Source of the DNA: a virus
Reading direction: 5' to 3' (one strand)
Length of the DNA: 43,490 bases
Virus record (IMG/VR): IMGVR_UViG_3300020056_000053
Location: 1 to 43,490 of that record
The translations under genes were made by a program, and so were the position numbers. The stretch's first letter is position 1, and each line of letters opens with the position of its first letter. This document shows, in pieces, positions 28,150 to 42,693 of this stretch. The notes beneath the pieces are model-generated. The model did not search any database. It saw only the letters and a list, made by a program, of their open reading frames with translations, and was not told the origin of the DNA.

Positions 28150-28464
28150 ATGCACAATTTTATAGAGTTATCAACAGCAAACATAGTTGTAGGGTATAAA
28201 ACAGTTAAAAGTAATGTAATAAGCGTAAACGAAGATGGCACTGAAAATTTATTTTCTGATTTATCTAATCATATAGAAGCACCTGAACACGCTACTGTTA
28301 GTGAAGTAGGTAGTAAATATAATTCTGATGACCAATCATTTACTTCACCAGGAGAAGATAGTCAAGGAAATCCTCGTTGGTTTAATATTGAAGATGGAAC
28401 TTTATGGCAAAATACTTATGAAGAAGATGGCAGAGTTTCAGTTCCTGAACAAGTTGTAGAATAA
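28150..28464 (+). CDS. Small protein at the end of the fibre region, unknown
   Basis: This acidic 104-aa protein is not recognised. It has a beta-rich N-terminal part (NIVVGYKTVKSNVISVNEDG) and an acidic, Trp-containing C-terminal part (PRWFNIEDGTLWQNTYEEDG). Position after the fibre genes would suit a fibre chaperone, but no motif supports this. Its 3' end overlaps the converging halogenase-like gene by 27 bases. Confidence 0.6.
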   Translation: MHNFIELSTANIVVGYKTVKSNVISVNEDGTENLFSDLSNHIEAPEHATVSEVGSKYNSDDQSFTSPGEDSQGNPRWFNIEDGTLWQNTYEEDGRVSVPEQVVE

Positions 28465-29529
28465 ATCTCCTACACTTAAATAATCTAAATTTTCTTTTAA
28501 CATTTTTTGATCGTAAAAATGTGAGTAATTATATTTAACTCTTGGATCATATATATTTAATACTCTGTTTTTAAAATTTTCTGATACATTATTTGTAAAA
28601 TGTTCTAAAGCTAAACTATTAGCTGTATTCCAAAACTTTGTGTCTATATTTTTATTAGCTAAATAGTGCATAAGAATAGTATCTATTGCTTCATCAATAT
28701 AATCTCTTAACGCCTGTGGATCAAAAGTTCTTGGATTATTCCATAAATGATAAGCAGAATTTATTGTTATATTAATACCAGTTAAACTTGTTCCTTCAAA
28801 AGGTTCAACAAAAAAATTTTTATTTCCTATGTAAACTTTGTTTTTATTAAAAGGAAACTTTTTGTAATAATTTTTAAAAGGTAATACTTGATAATCTTTA
28901 AAAGCAAATTGTTTTTCTAATTCTTCTAGTATCTCATCTTGTGTATTTAAATTAGAATTAAACATGTGTGTAACAAACAAATATCTTTTACTTGGTATTA
29001 TTGAAATATAACCATGTTTCATTGCTTTTATTTTTGTGTACATAAATGGTGGATATTCGTGAGGTATTTTAATTCCTAATGCTGTATTGACTGGAATGTT
29101 TTTAATAAGATTATAGCTTTCATCTATATTAGGTATACCACTACCATCAAATATATAATCTGACGATATATTGTTAAAGTTGTCTGTTTCAATATATTTT
29201 ATTTTATTTATTGACATAAGATAATTAATAAAATCTTTACTATTAAATTGCAAACTAGCATTACTTAATTTGTATGATTGAAAATAATCTTTATTATTAA
29301 AATTTTCTTTCATAATTCCTAATTTTATGTTGGCATAAAACTTTTCTATATCCAAATAATTTATGTTATCTAATTGAAACGGTGTATCTAAAGCAGAACT
29401 TATACCTACGTCCCAGTGTTTTGCGTTTGGGTTTATTAAACAATCTATTTCCCAATCAGTGTGTAATTTAAAATAATTAATAGCAAGCATACTAGCAATG
29501 CCGTTACCAAGTACAGTAAGTTTCTTCAT
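28438..29529 (-). CDS. Flavin-dependent halogenase-like protein
   Basis: This 363-aa protein, on the minus strand, has the layout of the FAD-dependent tryptophan-halogenase family. GNGIAS (8-13) is the dinucleotide-binding turn. SYKLS (85-89) carries a Lys (K87) at the place of the catalytic Lys of PrnA/RebH. DYIFDGSG (124-131) resembles DLxIDCSG. FVEPFEGTS (240-248) matches the FLEPLEST motif with its catalytic Glu (E245). The signature WxWxIP is degenerate: residues 174-179 read YISIIP. No flavin reductase gene is visible nearby. It may halogenate another substrate, or be a related monooxygenase. The gene stands alone against the direction of all others, as morons do. Confidence 0.68.
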   Translation of the reverse strand: MKKLTVLGNGIASMLAINYFKLHTDWEIDCLINPNAKHWDVGISSALDTPFQLDNINYLDIEKFYANIKLGIMKENFNNKDYFQSYKLSNASLQFNSKDFINYLMSINKIKYIETDNFNNISSDYIFDGSGIPNIDESYNLIKNIPVNTALGIKIPHEYPPFMYTKIKAMKHGYISIIPSKRYLFVTHMFNSNLNTQDEILEELEKQFAFKDYQVLPFKNYYKKFPFNKNKVYIGNKNFFVEPFEGTSLTGINITINSAYHLWNNPRTFDPQALRDYIDEAIDTILMHYLANKNIDTKFWNTANSLALEHFTNNVSENFKNRVLNIYDPRVKYNYSHFYDQKMLKENLDYLSVGDLFYNLFRN

Positions 29530-29812: not shown

Positions 29813-30529
29813 ATGCCTGAAATTATATTTACTTCAGATTTTGATGAATTTATAGATACAAAAGAAATTAATCCGCAACCTACTAAAAATTTTATTCCAA
29901 AGTGGTATAAAGATATGCCAGTAGATATGCCGCAAAATCATACATGGTTTAAAAGTAAATTAGTTCCTAACTGGAGAACTACTAAAATGTGTCCTTCTTT
30001 TGCAAATATATTTCACGAAGATACATACGTAGCTGTTGCACCTTGTGACATACATTTATTTAATATGAATGGTAAATGGCAAGGTAGAACATCTAATCCT
30101 AAAGTTGGTTTAAATCATCACGAAGATGATCAGTTTGTAAATCATATACCAGGAAAACCAATTAAAGCTGTATTTAGATTAGCGACTAGATTTCATTGTA
30201 TATTACCTAAAGGATATGCACTAAGATATATACCTTTAAATTTACATTTTAACAGTGATTGGTTTGCTACTTATGGTGTAATAGAACAAGATAAAATGAC
30301 ACAATTAAATGTACAAATATTAGTGACGACTGATAAAGAAGAATTGTTAATTAGAAAAGGGGAACCTATATGTTATTTAGTTCCTTATAGAAAAGAAAAA
30401 TATAAATATACTTTTAAATACATGGACGAAAAAATTAGAAGGTTTGTTAAAAAAATAGATTTAGTAACATTGAGTAGGTTTAAAGGAGGTTACAGTAAAA
30501 GTGAAAGTTACGATTATACCAAAGAGTAA
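29813..30529 (+). CDS. DUF6065-like protein, paralog A
   Basis: This 238-aa protein and the next one share a scheme: a Pro-rich N-terminal part with IPKWYKDMP, then TTKMCPSF with one conserved Cys, a central beta part with PKGYALRYIPLNLHFN, and a late KGEPICYLVPYRKE. From memory this fits a family (DUF6065) found in marine phages; activity is not known to me. The alternating strands and the G-x-P-x-x-Y/V motif suggest a jelly-roll or cupin-like fold. It lies beside the halogenase-like gene, so a shared small-molecule pathway is possible but unproven. Confidence 0.6.
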   Translation: MPEIIFTSDFDEFIDTKEINPQPTKNFIPKWYKDMPVDMPQNHTWFKSKLVPNWRTTKMCPSFANIFHEDTYVAVAPCDIHLFNMNGKWQGRTSNPKVGLNHHEDDQFVNHIPGKPIKAVFRLATRFHCILPKGYALRYIPLNLHFNSDWFATYGVIEQDKMTQLNVQILVTTDKEELLIRKGEPICYLVPYRKEKYKYTFKYMDEKIRRFVKKIDLVTLSRFKGGYSKSESYDYTKE

Positions 30530-31256
30530 AGAGTTTGAAGATCTATTAAAGTTATATCCGCCAGTAAAAGCTAAAGATATATTACCTGATTGGTGGAAAC
30601 AATTAAAACCTGGTAGTTACAGAGATAGTTGGAAAGACGCTCATTTAAACATTCCTTCAGGTGATAAATTTATTACAGCTAAAACATGTCCCGCTATACA
30701 AGATTATTTTGGTGAAGGTATTGTATTACCTTTATGGGGAAAAATGTATATAGGAACAGAAAAAGTAGATGGCAAAGATCATACTTATGCAGCATTTACT
30801 TCTGATACTTACCATAAAGAAAAATTATTAGGCGCACATGTAGAACATCAAGTAGGTGATATGCCTATAGGTATGACACCACAAGGAACTATATTAAAAT
30901 TAGGTATGCCTTACAAAATATTAGTACCTGATGGTTATAGTGTTATGTATCAAGATCCATTTTACCATTTTAGAAATGATATAAGAATGCTTACTGGTGT
31001 AGTAGAAGCAGATAAGTGGGGATATGTTGCATTTCCATTTTCTATTGAAAATTATAATTGCACTATAGAAGCAGGTACACCATTAGTTTATGTACATGTA
31101 TTTAAAAAAGAAGATATCAAATTAAAGGTTCGCAAAGGTACTAAAAAAGAATATGAAGAAAATTATTTAGAAAAACAGAACTTTGTAATTAATGAAAACT
31201 TTATAACAGGTTATAAAAAACAACCTAAATTTTATAAAGATTATCCGACTATGTAA
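30501..31256 (+). CDS. DUF6065-like protein, paralog B
   Basis: This 251-aa paralog has the equivalent blocks LPDWWKQLKPG, TAKTCPAIQDYFGEGIVLP, VPDGYSVMYQDPFYHFRND and EAGTPLVYVHVFKKE. It starts at GTG 30501, inside the end of paralog A, with an excellent ribosome site AAAGGAGGT (30482-30490), unlike its leaderless neighbours. The pair therefore forms a coupled two-gene operon, perhaps encoding a heteromer. Confidence 0.62.
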   Translation: MKVTIIPKSKEFEDLLKLYPPVKAKDILPDWWKQLKPGSYRDSWKDAHLNIPSGDKFITAKTCPAIQDYFGEGIVLPLWGKMYIGTEKVDGKDHTYAAFTSDTYHKEKLLGAHVEHQVGDMPIGMTPQGTILKLGMPYKILVPDGYSVMYQDPFYHFRNDIRMLTGVVEADKWGYVAFPFSIENYNCTIEAGTPLVYVHVFKKEDIKLKVRKGTKKEYEENYLEKQNFVINENFITGYKKQPKFYKDYPTM

Positions 31257-34833: not shown

Positions 34834-35025
34834 ATGAGTGATGAACTCAAAGCACTTATCGAAAAAGTTGTATGGACATTCATTGAAGCATTTGGTTCTG
34901 CTTTACTTGTAGGTCCTGCACTCGACTTAGACATTACAGCAATCCAAGCTGCAGCAATTGCAGGTGGTGGATCAGTGATAGTAGTACTAAAAGAGTATGC
35001 AAAAAAACAACTCGCAGGTAAGTAA
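34834..35025 (+). CDS. Holin (r1t-like)
   Basis: This 63-aa protein has two hydrophobic helices (VVWTFIEAFGSALLVGPAL and IQAAAIAGGGSVIVVLKEYA) separated by DLDI and a basic tail KKQLAGK. This is the typical r1t-type holin layout. It lies 12 bases after the endolysin candidate and has a GGAGA ribosome site, making an endolysin-holin pair. Confidence 0.72.
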   Translation: MSDELKALIEKVVWTFIEAFGSALLVGPALDLDITAIQAAAIAGGGSVIVVLKEYAKKQLAGK

Positions 35026-36217
35026 ACTTACTGCAACCCAACAGGACGTAGCACACAACGAAGTTAAAGATACACCAAGTCACCCCAATGGTTGGGAACC
35101 TGGCGTAGAATTTAATTACAAAACTAAGACAGGCACAATAACAACAAGAGCTATGGACAATGCTAGTCCAGAGTTTAATGATCTTCTTAGATCGTGGGGA
35201 TTCGATCCTGATAAGTATTCTATTCTAAATGACACTATTCGTGTAAGCACGTGGGATATGAATATGGGCAAAGGAGACGTGCAACAAGCATGGGCATACA
35301 AAGCACAGATTGTTTACAAAGAACATGCACTAGACAAAGAAGATTATGATCGTATATCTAAGTGGATCCAGACTTACAAGCGTAAAGCTAAACCTAAAGT
35401 AACAAAACCTAAAGCTAGTTTTTTTGTTGCTATATCTGATCTACAGTTAGGCAAGCGTGATGGCGGTGGTACTGAAGCTATTGTTAATAGATTTTTAGAA
35501 AAGATAGATACAGTACGTGATCGTTATAACTTCTTGCGTAAAGCAGGAGTGCAGCTAGATCAGTTAACAGTTGTAGGATTAGGTGATATAGTCGAGGGCT
35601 GCGTAGGATTTTACCCACAAGCAATGGGACCGAACGGAGTCGAACTTGATTATCGTAATCAAATGAAGTTAGCTAGAAGACTTATTGCTAAAGCATTAGT
35701 TGAATGGTCAAGAGACTTTGATGTAGTTGTAGTAGGTGCAGTACCAGGTAATCATGGAACTAAAAGAATTGCAAAGAATCTTGCACCAACAGGTGAGATG
35801 GACAACTATGACATAGAAGTGTTTGAACAGATTGCAGAAATATTTGCAGATAAACCACAGTACAAACATGTAAAGTTTGTTATACCAGATGAACCACACT
35901 TATCATTAAATGTATGTGGCACAAACATGAGCTTTACTCATGGACATCTTGCAGGTTACAGTGGATCGGTAGAAAATAAACTAATGAACTGGTGGAAGAA
36001 CCAGACATTTGGTGGATTCCATGCAGGATCCAGTGACATTCTTGTGACAGGTCATTACCATCATCACCGTGAATTACATGATGGACGCACCTGGATCCAG
36101 GTACCTAGCTTAGATGAGTCAACATGGTTTGAGCAGCAAGCAGGTAAGAAAACCAAACAAGGTGTAATGACTATGGTTATAGATCATAAAGGACACAATA
36201 ATAAAGAGATAGTATAA
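34997..36217 (+). CDS. Metallophosphoesterase (calcineurin-like)
   Basis: This 406-aa protein carries the five metal-site blocks of the family: SDLQLGK (about 146-152, Gln at the usual His of DxH), GLGDIVEG (about 194-201), PGNHG (about 249-253), THGHLAG (about 314-320) and TGHYHHH (about 351-357). Related phage proteins act as DNA exonucleases or repair phosphoesterases, but this is inferred. The first 140 residues are a separate domain rich in charged and aromatic residues. ATG 34997 lies inside the holin gene and has a poor ribosome site; the next in-frame ATG is about 51 codons later. Confidence 0.75.
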   Translation: MQKNNSQVSKLTATQQDVAHNEVKDTPSHPNGWEPGVEFNYKTKTGTITTRAMDNASPEFNDLLRSWGFDPDKYSILNDTIRVSTWDMNMGKGDVQQAWAYKAQIVYKEHALDKEDYDRISKWIQTYKRKAKPKVTKPKASFFVAISDLQLGKRDGGGTEAIVNRFLEKIDTVRDRYNFLRKAGVQLDQLTVVGLGDIVEGCVGFYPQAMGPNGVELDYRNQMKLARRLIAKALVEWSRDFDVVVVGAVPGNHGTKRIAKNLAPTGEMDNYDIEVFEQIAEIFADKPQYKHVKFVIPDEPHLSLNVCGTNMSFTHGHLAGYSGSVENKLMNWWKNQTFGGFHAGSSDILVTGHYHHHRELHDGRTWIQVPSLDESTWFEQQAGKKTKQGVMTMVIDHKGHNNKEIV

Positions 36218-36220
36218 AGC

Positions 36221-36244
36221 AAAGCGGACTCACAGGTCCGCTTT
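36221..36244 (+). terminator. Terminator after the metallophosphoesterase
   Basis: AAAGCGGAC (36221-36229) pairs with GTCCGCTTT (36236-36244) around TCACAG, followed by ATT. The stem is strong; the T-run is short. The same AGCGGAC/GTCCGCT core is used by the terminator at 43248-43269. Confidence 0.75.
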
Positions 36245-36311
36245 ATTGCTTGTGGGAAGGAGTTGTCTAACGTTATGACACGTAAGATAACTATATCCAC
36301 AGATTACTGCA

Positions 36312-36320
36312 TGCTATAAT
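36312..36320 (+). promoter_or_regulatory. Extended -10 promoter of the candidate small RNA
   Basis: TGCTATAAT is a perfect extended -10 match. Transcription would begin near 36326-36328, and a terminator lies about 75 bases downstream. Confidence 0.6.
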
Positions 36321-36324
36321 AGTT

Positions 36325-36408
36325 GTCAAGTCAATTCATTGGTCAGAGGTTTCCTCCTTTACTCTGATCCTTGACACCAGATCATAACTTCGATCTGGTG
36401 TTTTTACT
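36325..36408 (+). ncRNA. Small RNA or attenuator with anti-Shine-Dalgarno loop
   Basis: After the promoter, GGTCAGAG (36341-36348) pairs with CTCTGATC (36362-36369), leaving a 13-nt loop that contains TTTCCTCCTTTA. CCTCCTTT equals the anti-SD tail of many 16S rRNAs. An outer stem TGTCAAG/CTTGACA (36324-36330 with 36370-36376) would close the structure, but its last three bases are also the first of the terminator stem, so the two compete. The transcript could be a free RNA of about 80 nt or a leader controlling the early block. Confidence 0.5.
36374..36405 (+). terminator. Rho-independent terminator of the small RNA
   Basis: ACACCAGATC (36374-36383) pairs perfectly with GATCTGGTGT (36392-36401) around an 8-nt loop, followed by a T-run to 36405. 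This is the cleanest terminator after the one at 41825. Confidence 0.8.
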
Positions 36409-36434
36409 ATAAATTCTTTACGATTCTGTATTTA

Positions 36435-36445
36435 TGCTATATAAT
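36435..36445 (+). promoter_or_regulatory. -10 promoter of the early/accessory block
   Basis: TGCTATATAAT contains both TATAAT and a TG motif upstream. It is followed by GGGAGG and the ATG at 36464, so the mRNA would have a short leader with a ribosome site. Confidence 0.5.
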
Positions 36446-36904: not shown

Positions 36905-37146
36905 GCGCACCTGATCCAATGGACAGAGATGTAAAAGTAATGTTTAGTGATCTAAGTACACGTGATTATATAATTACTGCTAGTAATTTAAAAGAAGCAG
37001 AAGAAGTATTTGATACAATATTTAATCACATGGAACAAAGTATTACAGATATTTTAAAACAATATAGTGTTGGCAAAAAAACAAAAGTGTGGGTAGAATA
37101 CCACATAGATAAAGTACAAGACATGAATGAGGAGGAGAACGACTAA
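36901..37146 (+). CDS. Early-block protein, unknown (81 aa)
   Basis: An acidic small alpha/beta protein with a strand-helix-strand pattern (VKVMFSDLSTRDYIITASN, a helix of E/A/K residues, then TKVWVEYHIDKV). Not recognised. It is coupled to the gene before and after by overlapping start and stop codons; the 3' end GAGGAG is the ribosome site of the next gene. Confidence 0.65.
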   Translation: MSAPDPMDRDVKVMFSDLSTRDYIITASNLKEAEEVFDTIFNHMEQSITDILKQYSVGKKTKVWVEYHIDKVQDMNEEEND

Positions 37147-37904
37147 TGGCATGGCAAGACGAATACGATTTAGTAGAAGATAGACTTAGAAAATTTTGGG
37201 AAGATAATCCTAATGGTAGAGTCAGCACAGAAATTTTATATATAACAGATGATCATAAGTCTGCTGTATTTAGAGCAAGCATATATAAAGATATTGCAGA
37301 TGAAGTACCAGTATCAACTGGTATAGCACAAGACCAACATGGATCAAAAGGTGCAAACCAAACATCATGGATAGAAAATGGTTCAACTTCAGCAGTTGGT
37401 AGAGCATTAGCTAATTGGATTTACGCAGCAAAGAAGAGACCATCAGTCACAGAAATGCAGAAGGTGGAGAACTTGTCGGACAGTCAAGTTACCAAGAGTG
37501 CAGCTAAAACTGGCAACAGCAATAGCTACACTCCTTCACCATCTGTACAAGAAAAGATTAAAGATGTACCTACTGGTCCAGTAGAAGATACTAAAGCAGC
37601 ATTAGAAGAAATTGGTGTAGTGGTTCAGGAAAAAGTTGTAGTAACTAATGGCACAATAGAGCCAAGATGTTTAAGCTGCAGTAGTGAGCTATGGGATAAC
37701 AGAGTAGACAAAGCAAGCGGTAAAATTAAAGATACTTATCCTGACTGGAAGTGTAAGAACAAAGAATGTGACAATGGTAATCCACGTATATATTACATGG
37801 AATCATTCAACGCAGCTAAACAAGCACCAGAAGAATGGTTTATGCCTGCAATGCCTGAAGCAAAAGCAATAGAGGATATTGGCGAAGACGAAGCACCGTT
37901 CTAA
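37146..37904 (+). CDS. ssDNA-annealing (ERF-like) protein with C-terminal zinc ribbon
   Basis: Residues about 5-100 fit a phage ssDNA-annealing or ssDNA-binding type: an N-terminal VEDRLRKFWEDNPNGRVSTEI, a strand VFRASIYKD, then TGIAQDQHGSKGANQTSW and ENGSTSAVGRALANWIYA, which resembles the conserved ETSAVGRALA block of Erf-like proteins. A variable linker follows, then a zinc ribbon CLSC...CKNKEC (about 177-200) and an acidic tail ending in DIGEDEAPF, as found on ssDNA-binding proteins. A role in recombination-dependent replication is inferred. Confidence 0.65.
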   Translation: MAWQDEYDLVEDRLRKFWEDNPNGRVSTEILYITDDHKSAVFRASIYKDIADEVPVSTGIAQDQHGSKGANQTSWIENGSTSAVGRALANWIYAAKKRPSVTEMQKVENLSDSQVTKSAAKTGNSNSYTPSPSVQEKIKDVPTGPVEDTKAALEEIGVVVQEKVVVTNGTIEPRCLSCSSELWDNRVDKASGKIKDTYPDWKCKNKECDNGNPRIYYMESFNAAKQAPEEWFMPAMPEAKAIEDIGEDEAPF

Positions 37905-41858: not shown

Positions 41859-41912
41859 ATGTTCTTGATTACTTAATTAATCCAGGTAAAATTGATTTAG
41901 AAGGAGGTTGTT

Positions 41913-42102: not shown

Positions 42103-42693
42103 ATGACACAACAAACAGAGACAAAGAACTTTATAGAAATATGTCCTGGCTGCCTTGCTTGTTATAATCAAGGGCGCTTGACTTTTTATTGGTTCCAAAT
42201 AAACAAAGACACAACGCTTGAACAGATAGAGCGCGCGCTTGACGTGGAAGAGATTCACAGAAGAGCAAAAACTCCATTTGTTTGTGGCGGTGATGAAGTT
42301 CACATACAAGATAATGATTTTGGCGGCGGTGAGTACATGACCGCAAAAGAATTATACGGATATGTTGAGCTGCTGCAACTGGTCCCAAATTTTGACTACA
42401 TCAAAGCGTTTAAAGAAGTTTATTTAATGCAAGATGAGTTCCAACAATTTGGTAGCGGCATACAATACGAGCCAAGCGAACAGTTCAAAGAATTTGCTGA
42501 CTCCGTCCAGGTCTTCGACAACATAGACGAACAGAACACGCACCTGGAATATGAGTTTATGGAAATCTATGACGTGAGCGAAACAGATAGATTATATAAT
42601 TATATTGATTGGTCCACAGTGCGCCACGATATGCTTATAGATATGCAAAGAGCAGAAGTAAACGGAAAAATATATTTGTGGAGAGGAATATAA
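42103..42693 (+). CDS. ardA: ArdA-type antirestriction protein
   Basis: This acidic 196-aa protein fits the ArdA family, DNA mimics that block type I restriction enzymes. Matching blocks are CLACYNQGRLTFYWFQI (about 18-34; compare the family's xLxxYNxGxLxGxWI), VHIQDNDFGGGEYMTAKELY (about 66-85; compare the family's IHDYExF) and YIDWSTVRHDMLID near the C-terminus. Length and high content of D and E agree. It would protect incoming phage DNA. The gene is in the early block, where such genes usually sit. Confidence 0.75.
   Translation: MTQQTETKNFIEICPGCLACYNQGRLTFYWFQINKDTTLEQIERALDVEEIHRRAKTPFVCGGDEVHIQDNDFGGGEYMTAKELYGYVELLQLVPNFDYIKAFKEVYLMQDEFQQFGSGIQYEPSEQFKEFADSVQVFDNIDEQNTHLEYEFMEIYDVSETDRLYNYIDWSTVRHDMLIDMQRAEVNGKIYLWRGI

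Follow-up and report, generated by a model that had tools for sequence, protein, structure and literature searches.

A predicted phage small RNA with an invariant anti-Shine-Dalgarno loop on a covarying hairpin stem

Does the short interval between the exonuclease gene and the next operon of this virus encode an RNA, and what would such an RNA pair with? The window, meaning the whole stretch of DNA that was analysed, is a 43,490-bp virus record from IMG/VR (G+C 35%), which we take to be marine from its IMG sample numbers. For its exonuclease, major capsid and portal proteins, the closest catalogued relatives (25-33% identity) nearly all come from actinobacteriophages, so the host is probably an actinobacterium. 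A first-pass annotation had proposed that the interval holds a small RNA (sRNA) gene with its own promoter and terminator, whose hairpin loop mimics the anti-Shine-Dalgarno (anti-SD) tail of 16S rRNA. The features of the locus are as follows.

34997-36217: exonuclease gene, just before the sRNA locus
36221-36244, plus strand: terminator hairpin of the exonuclease operon, which would insulate the sRNA promoter
36255-36293, plus strand: upstream element GGAAGGAG (36255-36262) and imperfect dyad AGTTGTCTAACG / CGTAAGATAACT, operator-like
36312-36320, plus strand: extended -10 TGCTATAAT; TGnTATAAT in nearly all relatives, with n variable
36326-36404, plus strand: predicted sRNA of about 79 nt, its 5' end placed from the promoter and its 3' end from the terminator
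36341-36369, plus strand: covarying 8-bp hairpin with the anti-SD loop
36349-36361, plus strand: invariant 13-nt loop GTTTCCTCCTTTA, as RNA GUUUCCUCCUUUA
36373-36402, plus strand: intrinsic terminator of the sRNA, a stem-loop ahead of a short T run (TTTAC); stem sequence varies in relatives
36464: start of the operon downstream of the sRNA

The elements named in the first-pass annotation are all in place. The extended -10 is perfect; no good -35 was found ahead of it, and extended -10 promoters work without one. The stem pairs GGTCAGAG (36341-36348) with CTCTGATC (36362-36369) over 8 bp including one G-U, encloses the 13-nt loop and is followed by the terminator. Ensemble folding leaves the loop unpaired with a probability of at least 0.96, and the sRNA folds at -29.6 as against -16.2 for 200 dinucleotide shuffles (z -4.2), beating all 200. 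The terminator loop is AU-rich, and only the first hairpin carries a C-rich loop. There is no open reading frame of note inside the sRNA (longest, 14 codons), and a coding role through the small upstream frame at 36276-36320 (MTRKITISTDYCML) was rejected, the frame being broken in L024 and L027. Rfam returned no family at gathering score in the window and none at E <= 1 in L031, a contig that bears the element. Judged from these signals, positions 36312-36404 are predicted to form a non-coding RNA gene of about 80 nt with its own promoter and terminator, and the sRNA is almost certainly real and structured.

Relatives were collected in two ways. An exact 30-nt hairpin probe returned 30 viral contigs. 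In a test independent of the loop, relatives were fetched by their exonuclease protein, and those that we read were 82-100% identical. All 72 anchored loci with readable downstream sequence carry the exact 13-nt loop no more than 800 nt from the exonuclease (many are near-duplicates, so independent observations number fewer than 72); it is on the same strand in 68 and inverted in 4. The invariant unit is thus the whole of GUUUCCUCCUUUA. Around this one loop the stems differ widely, from GGTCAGAG/CTCTGATC to CAAGTAGG/CCTACTTG, GATAGAG/CTCTATC and GGCGATGG/CCTTCGTC. The first-pass annotation had named stem covariation around a conserved loop as the pattern to look for, and it is there: when 19 distinct hairpins are aligned on the loop without gaps, 90.8% of stem cells are paired, compared with 65.6% after shuffling and at most 54.6% in slid-register controls. 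Two-sided changes number 40 (13.8 shuffled) and fall at six of the eight stem pairs. In the relatives TGnTATAAT keeps its place 19-30 nt 5' of the loop, and on the 3' side a terminator is retained although its sequence varies. Loop conservation and stem covariation are well beyond chance.

Beyond the family, the exonuclease gene is followed by little or no intergenic space in the isolate phages phiELB20, PHL085M01 and Olliecat, and no sRNA counterpart was found at that site. A similarity search with a 4-kb stretch of the window found no catalogued phage. A scan of bacterial genome contigs for TATAATN{15,45}GGTTTCCTCCTTTA gave 32 stretches, none with the hairpin; these were set aside as host homologues, being mostly reverse-strand ribosome sites of unrelated bacteria.

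The four inverted loci (L060, L061, L066 and L072) bear directly on whether the RNA belongs to a neighbouring gene. In each, the entire unit of upstream terminator, dyad, promoter, RNA and terminator is turned around at the same locus. The sRNA there occupies the opposite strand; it converges with the exonuclease gene and diverges from the genes that come next, and its own strand has no gene upstream of it. It follows that the element is a gene in its own right rather than a leader, attenuator or 3' UTR of a fixed neighbour. A hairpin equivalent to that at 36221-36244 precedes the unit in the relatives, inverted units included. By its sequence signals, then, the locus is a stand-alone transcription unit with promoter and terminator, and it carries a conserved, accessible seed complementary to SD sequences.

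Ahead of the sRNA promoter, all family members carry the element GGAAGGAG and the dyad, starting 47-59 nt 5' of the -10. The position of the element is conserved and the dyad sequence is variable. G-U pairs in the dyad of several members hinted at an RNA hairpin, but the reverse strand folds better in L112, L119, L134 and L153, and that reading was set aside. With neither strand consistently the better folder, a DNA operator has at least equal claim, and we consider it the probable identity of the element. Within the sRNA loop, 6-7 nt are complementary to GGAAGGAG itself. On the other side, a promoter-like site (36417-36445) directly follows the sRNA terminator, ahead of gene 36464, and a TATATAAT-like box occurs 3' of the sRNA in several relatives; because of this box, the sRNA may stand at the head of an early operon.

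Other observations on the window concern its gene content. A tryptophan-halogenase-like gene (28438-29529, minus strand, phrog_2928) is surrounded by plus-strand genes and has a near-consensus promoter, TTGACA-18-TAGAAT, at 29565-29536. Two neighbouring, overlapping paralogues of unknown function (phrog_7084) occupy 29813-31256. An ArdA-like antirestriction protein (PF07275) lies at 42103-42693, and 37146-37904 encodes a 252-aa protein (phrog_11717) with an acidic EDEAPF C-terminal tail, as in single-stranded-DNA-binding proteins.

What does the loop resemble, and what could it bind? The description of the loop as a mimic of the 16S tail holds for eight bases, CCUCCUUU, the only stretch that the two share; the conserved unit is longer, and as a whole it is best seen as complementary to a strong SD flanked by A-rich sequence (AAAGGAGGAAA). 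On UUAAAGGAGGAAAUAU the loop pairs at -17.7 kcal/mol and the 16S tail at -12.0 kcal/mol, whereas over the ribosome-binding sites (RBSs) of 422 phage genes the tail is stronger on average (-8.17 vs -7.13). Since the tail out-pairs the loop on the average phage RBS, phage messages would mostly be spared. The longest match of the loop to a phage RBS spans 9 nt and belongs to a gene that most relatives lack. The strongest SD match to the loop in the window is that of the second phrog_7084 paralogue, a gene absent from most relatives. The strong sites singled out in the first-pass annotation do exist (TAAAGGAGG at 30481 and AAGGAGG at 41901), but their standing as special targets of the loop did not survive comparison: gene 30501 occurs in few relatives, and in eight related phage genomes no orthologous gene's RBS keeps a long match to the loop. 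The strongest complementarity kept in all eight is with the SD of gene 37146 (GAGGAGGA, mean -13.9), an SD retained in most relatives.

In an effort to place the hairpin more broadly, we scanned sequences outside the family with a pattern consisting of the loop and one closing pair. Such cases, found by their loop patterns, show stems recurring around the loop and not conservation of the loop itself. Stems of 9-13 bp enclose the loop in 5 of 50 distinct non-family contexts (L210, L212, L220, L221 and L237), compared with 0 of 65 with stems of at least 9 bp around a scrambled loop of the same composition (Fisher p = 0.014). A second loop pattern gave 1 of 45, that match being possibly coding, and the pooled p is 0.08; the enrichment over the scrambled-loop control is modest. 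Several hairpins with the same 11-nt core in unrelated phages have a promoter and/or a terminator. On L132, L114 and L149, virus contigs of up to 190 kb, TATAAT is followed by the hairpin and then by TTTTT. L540 (60-130, minus strand) has TATAAT followed by an intrinsic terminator whose own hairpin loop is the core TTTCCTCCTTT, and L508 (880-1010, plus strand) has TATAAT, a hairpin with the same TTTCCTCCTTT core and a terminator; the latter lies inside reading frames of 90-167 aa and is counted as a supporting example only. L231 is a further non-family hairpin with the motif. No protein of L132, L212, L221, L231, L210, L237, L508 or L540 is similar to those of the window, and similarity searches with L508 and L540 found no catalogued phage. 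The distant relatives L198 and L200 (L198 exonuclease, 36%) carry the loop on a stem of their own. In L212, L220 and L221 the hairpin lies just 5' of a gene and may act in cis. Two cases were excluded from the argument: the core-loop hairpin of L580, L644 and L555 (TerL 51% and portal 53% to the window), which overlaps the end of an opposite-strand gene, and that of L424, which is possibly coding.

Recurrence of one core in unrelated phages is what would be expected if its partner, the SD, were universal. It is possible, though on present evidence doubtful, that unrelated phages have repeatedly evolved a minimal promoter-hairpin-terminator RNA with a generic anti-SD UUUCCUCCUUU loop. Such a translation-takeover RNA would win over the ribosome tail at those host RBSs that are strongest and A-flanked, and would thereby tilt translation towards phage messages.

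Known RNAs offer partial parallels. The actinobacterial sRNA B11/6C (ncRv13660c) represses through G-rich 5' UTRs by means of C-rich loops in mycobacteria (PMC10470900), and it is chaperone-independent according to the title of Mai et al. 2019, cited there. Like it, the phage RNA is small and would pair with G-rich 5' UTRs through a C-rich hairpin loop. However, 6C is chromosomal and has two loops with C runs, whereas the phage-encoded sRNA has one fixed loop, GUUUCCUCCUUUA, and matches no Rfam covariance model; it resembles 6C/B11 in mode and is not a member of that family. Yfr1 of cyanobacteria, an abundant short RNA, has an ultraconserved 11-nt motif that includes CUCCU and stays unpaired, with variable hairpins on either side (PMC2190773). 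That motif, ACUCCUCACAC, separates two hairpins instead of forming a loop, and it is absent from the phage sRNA. Among phage RNAs, c4 of P1/P7 and sar of P22 block translation by pairing near an RBS, and the complementary stretches of c4 are thought to lie in loops (PMC12197685). The likeness would be in pairing near a message's RBS to block translation; the difference is that they act on one phage mRNA (ant), in immunity, whereas the loop described here corresponds to a generic strong SD with no unique phage target, its best phage RBS match of 9 nt falling short of extended complementarity to one mRNA. The statement in the first-pass annotation that no phage RNA of this design is known is therefore nearly right, with the amendment that phage antisense RNAs with RBS-complementary loops are known, each reported to act on one specific target (c4; PMC12197685). 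Mycobacteriophages L5, D29 and StarStuff also make abundant non-coding RNAs of unknown function (PMC5712189). These too are actinophage non-coding RNAs, highly expressed in those phages, but their right-end RNA comes from a region of ~500 bp, and D29 36000-49127 holds no hairpin with a CCTCC loop. A literature search by loop sequence returned nothing relevant.

The explanation that we favour, with a probability of roughly 0.5, is that the locus encodes a trans-acting sRNA that works by anti-SD pairing and represses mRNAs, most likely those of the host. In this model a stand-alone sRNA of about 80 nt, probably expressed early, would present GUUUCCUCCUUUA as a single-stranded seed on a rigid hairpin. 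The seed would base-pair with strong SD regions flanked by A (the AAAGGAGGAAA type), block 30S binding and in this way keep a set of messages, most likely those of the host, from being translated during takeover. The gene unit, its structure, the invariant loop and its independence of neighbours come from sequence comparison and the advantage on A-flanked SDs from computed energies; transcription, timing, targets and repression we infer. The seed never drifts and no phage target is conserved, which suggests that its partner is either host mRNA or a conserved protein of the host.

All 13 nt are invariant, even the G and the A, whose contribution to SD pairing is small; this could instead mark a protein-binding loop, longer than SD pairing needs. 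On this explanation, which we consider unlikely and the most interesting of the rivals, the loop is a decoy for a host protein that reads pyrimidine or anti-SD RNA, such as ribosomal protein S1 or a MazF/RelE-type toxin RNase that disables the 16S anti-SD in abortive infection. Mycobacterial RelE1 and MazF-mt11 remove the 16S anti-SD (PMC12620021, PMC12274833), the phage has an exonuclease, capsid and portal with actinophage affinities, and the loop holds published cleavage motifs of M. tuberculosis MazF-mt6 (UUCCU), MazF-mt3 (UCCUU) and MazF-mt9 (UUU) (PMC12274833). Nonetheless, a pyrimidine-rich loop easily matches such short motifs, the bases flanking CCUCCUUU are unlike the 16S tail, the MazF-mt11 site CACCU is absent, and the same-loop hairpins in dissimilar phages would demand a widely shared protein target. 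Antisense timing of the phage's own messages is rather unlikely as well. In its favour are the retained complementarity to gene 37146 and the position of the sRNA just 5' of that region; but GAGGAGGA shares bases with the end of the reading frame before it, and coding, or service as an ordinary strong SD, may explain why it is retained, the 16S tail out-pairs the loop across all genes, and a loop of this kind should drift with its target, yet shows no drift.

The sRNA lies between the exonuclease gene and an operon that has a promoter-like site of its own, and in three unrelated phages the same-loop hairpin is found just 5' of a gene. Both would suit a local cis element, which could be a leader or attenuator of the downstream operon or part of the 3' UTR of the exonuclease operon. 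Inversion of the unit in four relatives with loop, promoter and terminator retained, and the terminators flanking the sRNA on both sides, make this improbable. Least probable is a hairpin acting as DNA, for example as a protein or replication site, with incidental promoter and terminator. An invariant loop on a variable stem would also fit a recognised single-stranded DNA loop, but TGnTATAAT constantly precedes the loop by 19-30 nt and a terminator constantly follows, and several stems keep pairing through G-U, which favours RNA.

Taken as a trans-acting anti-SD RNA, the locus would add to phage biology in several ways. With its comparative model it describes a conserved phage RNA family absent from Rfam, in viruses probably of uncultured marine actinobacteria. 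If the proposed mechanism is true, these phages redirect ribosomes by RNA and not by proteins alone, through a decoy of the very sequence with which the ribosome reads SDs, and this would constitute a compact, general mechanism of host shut-off.
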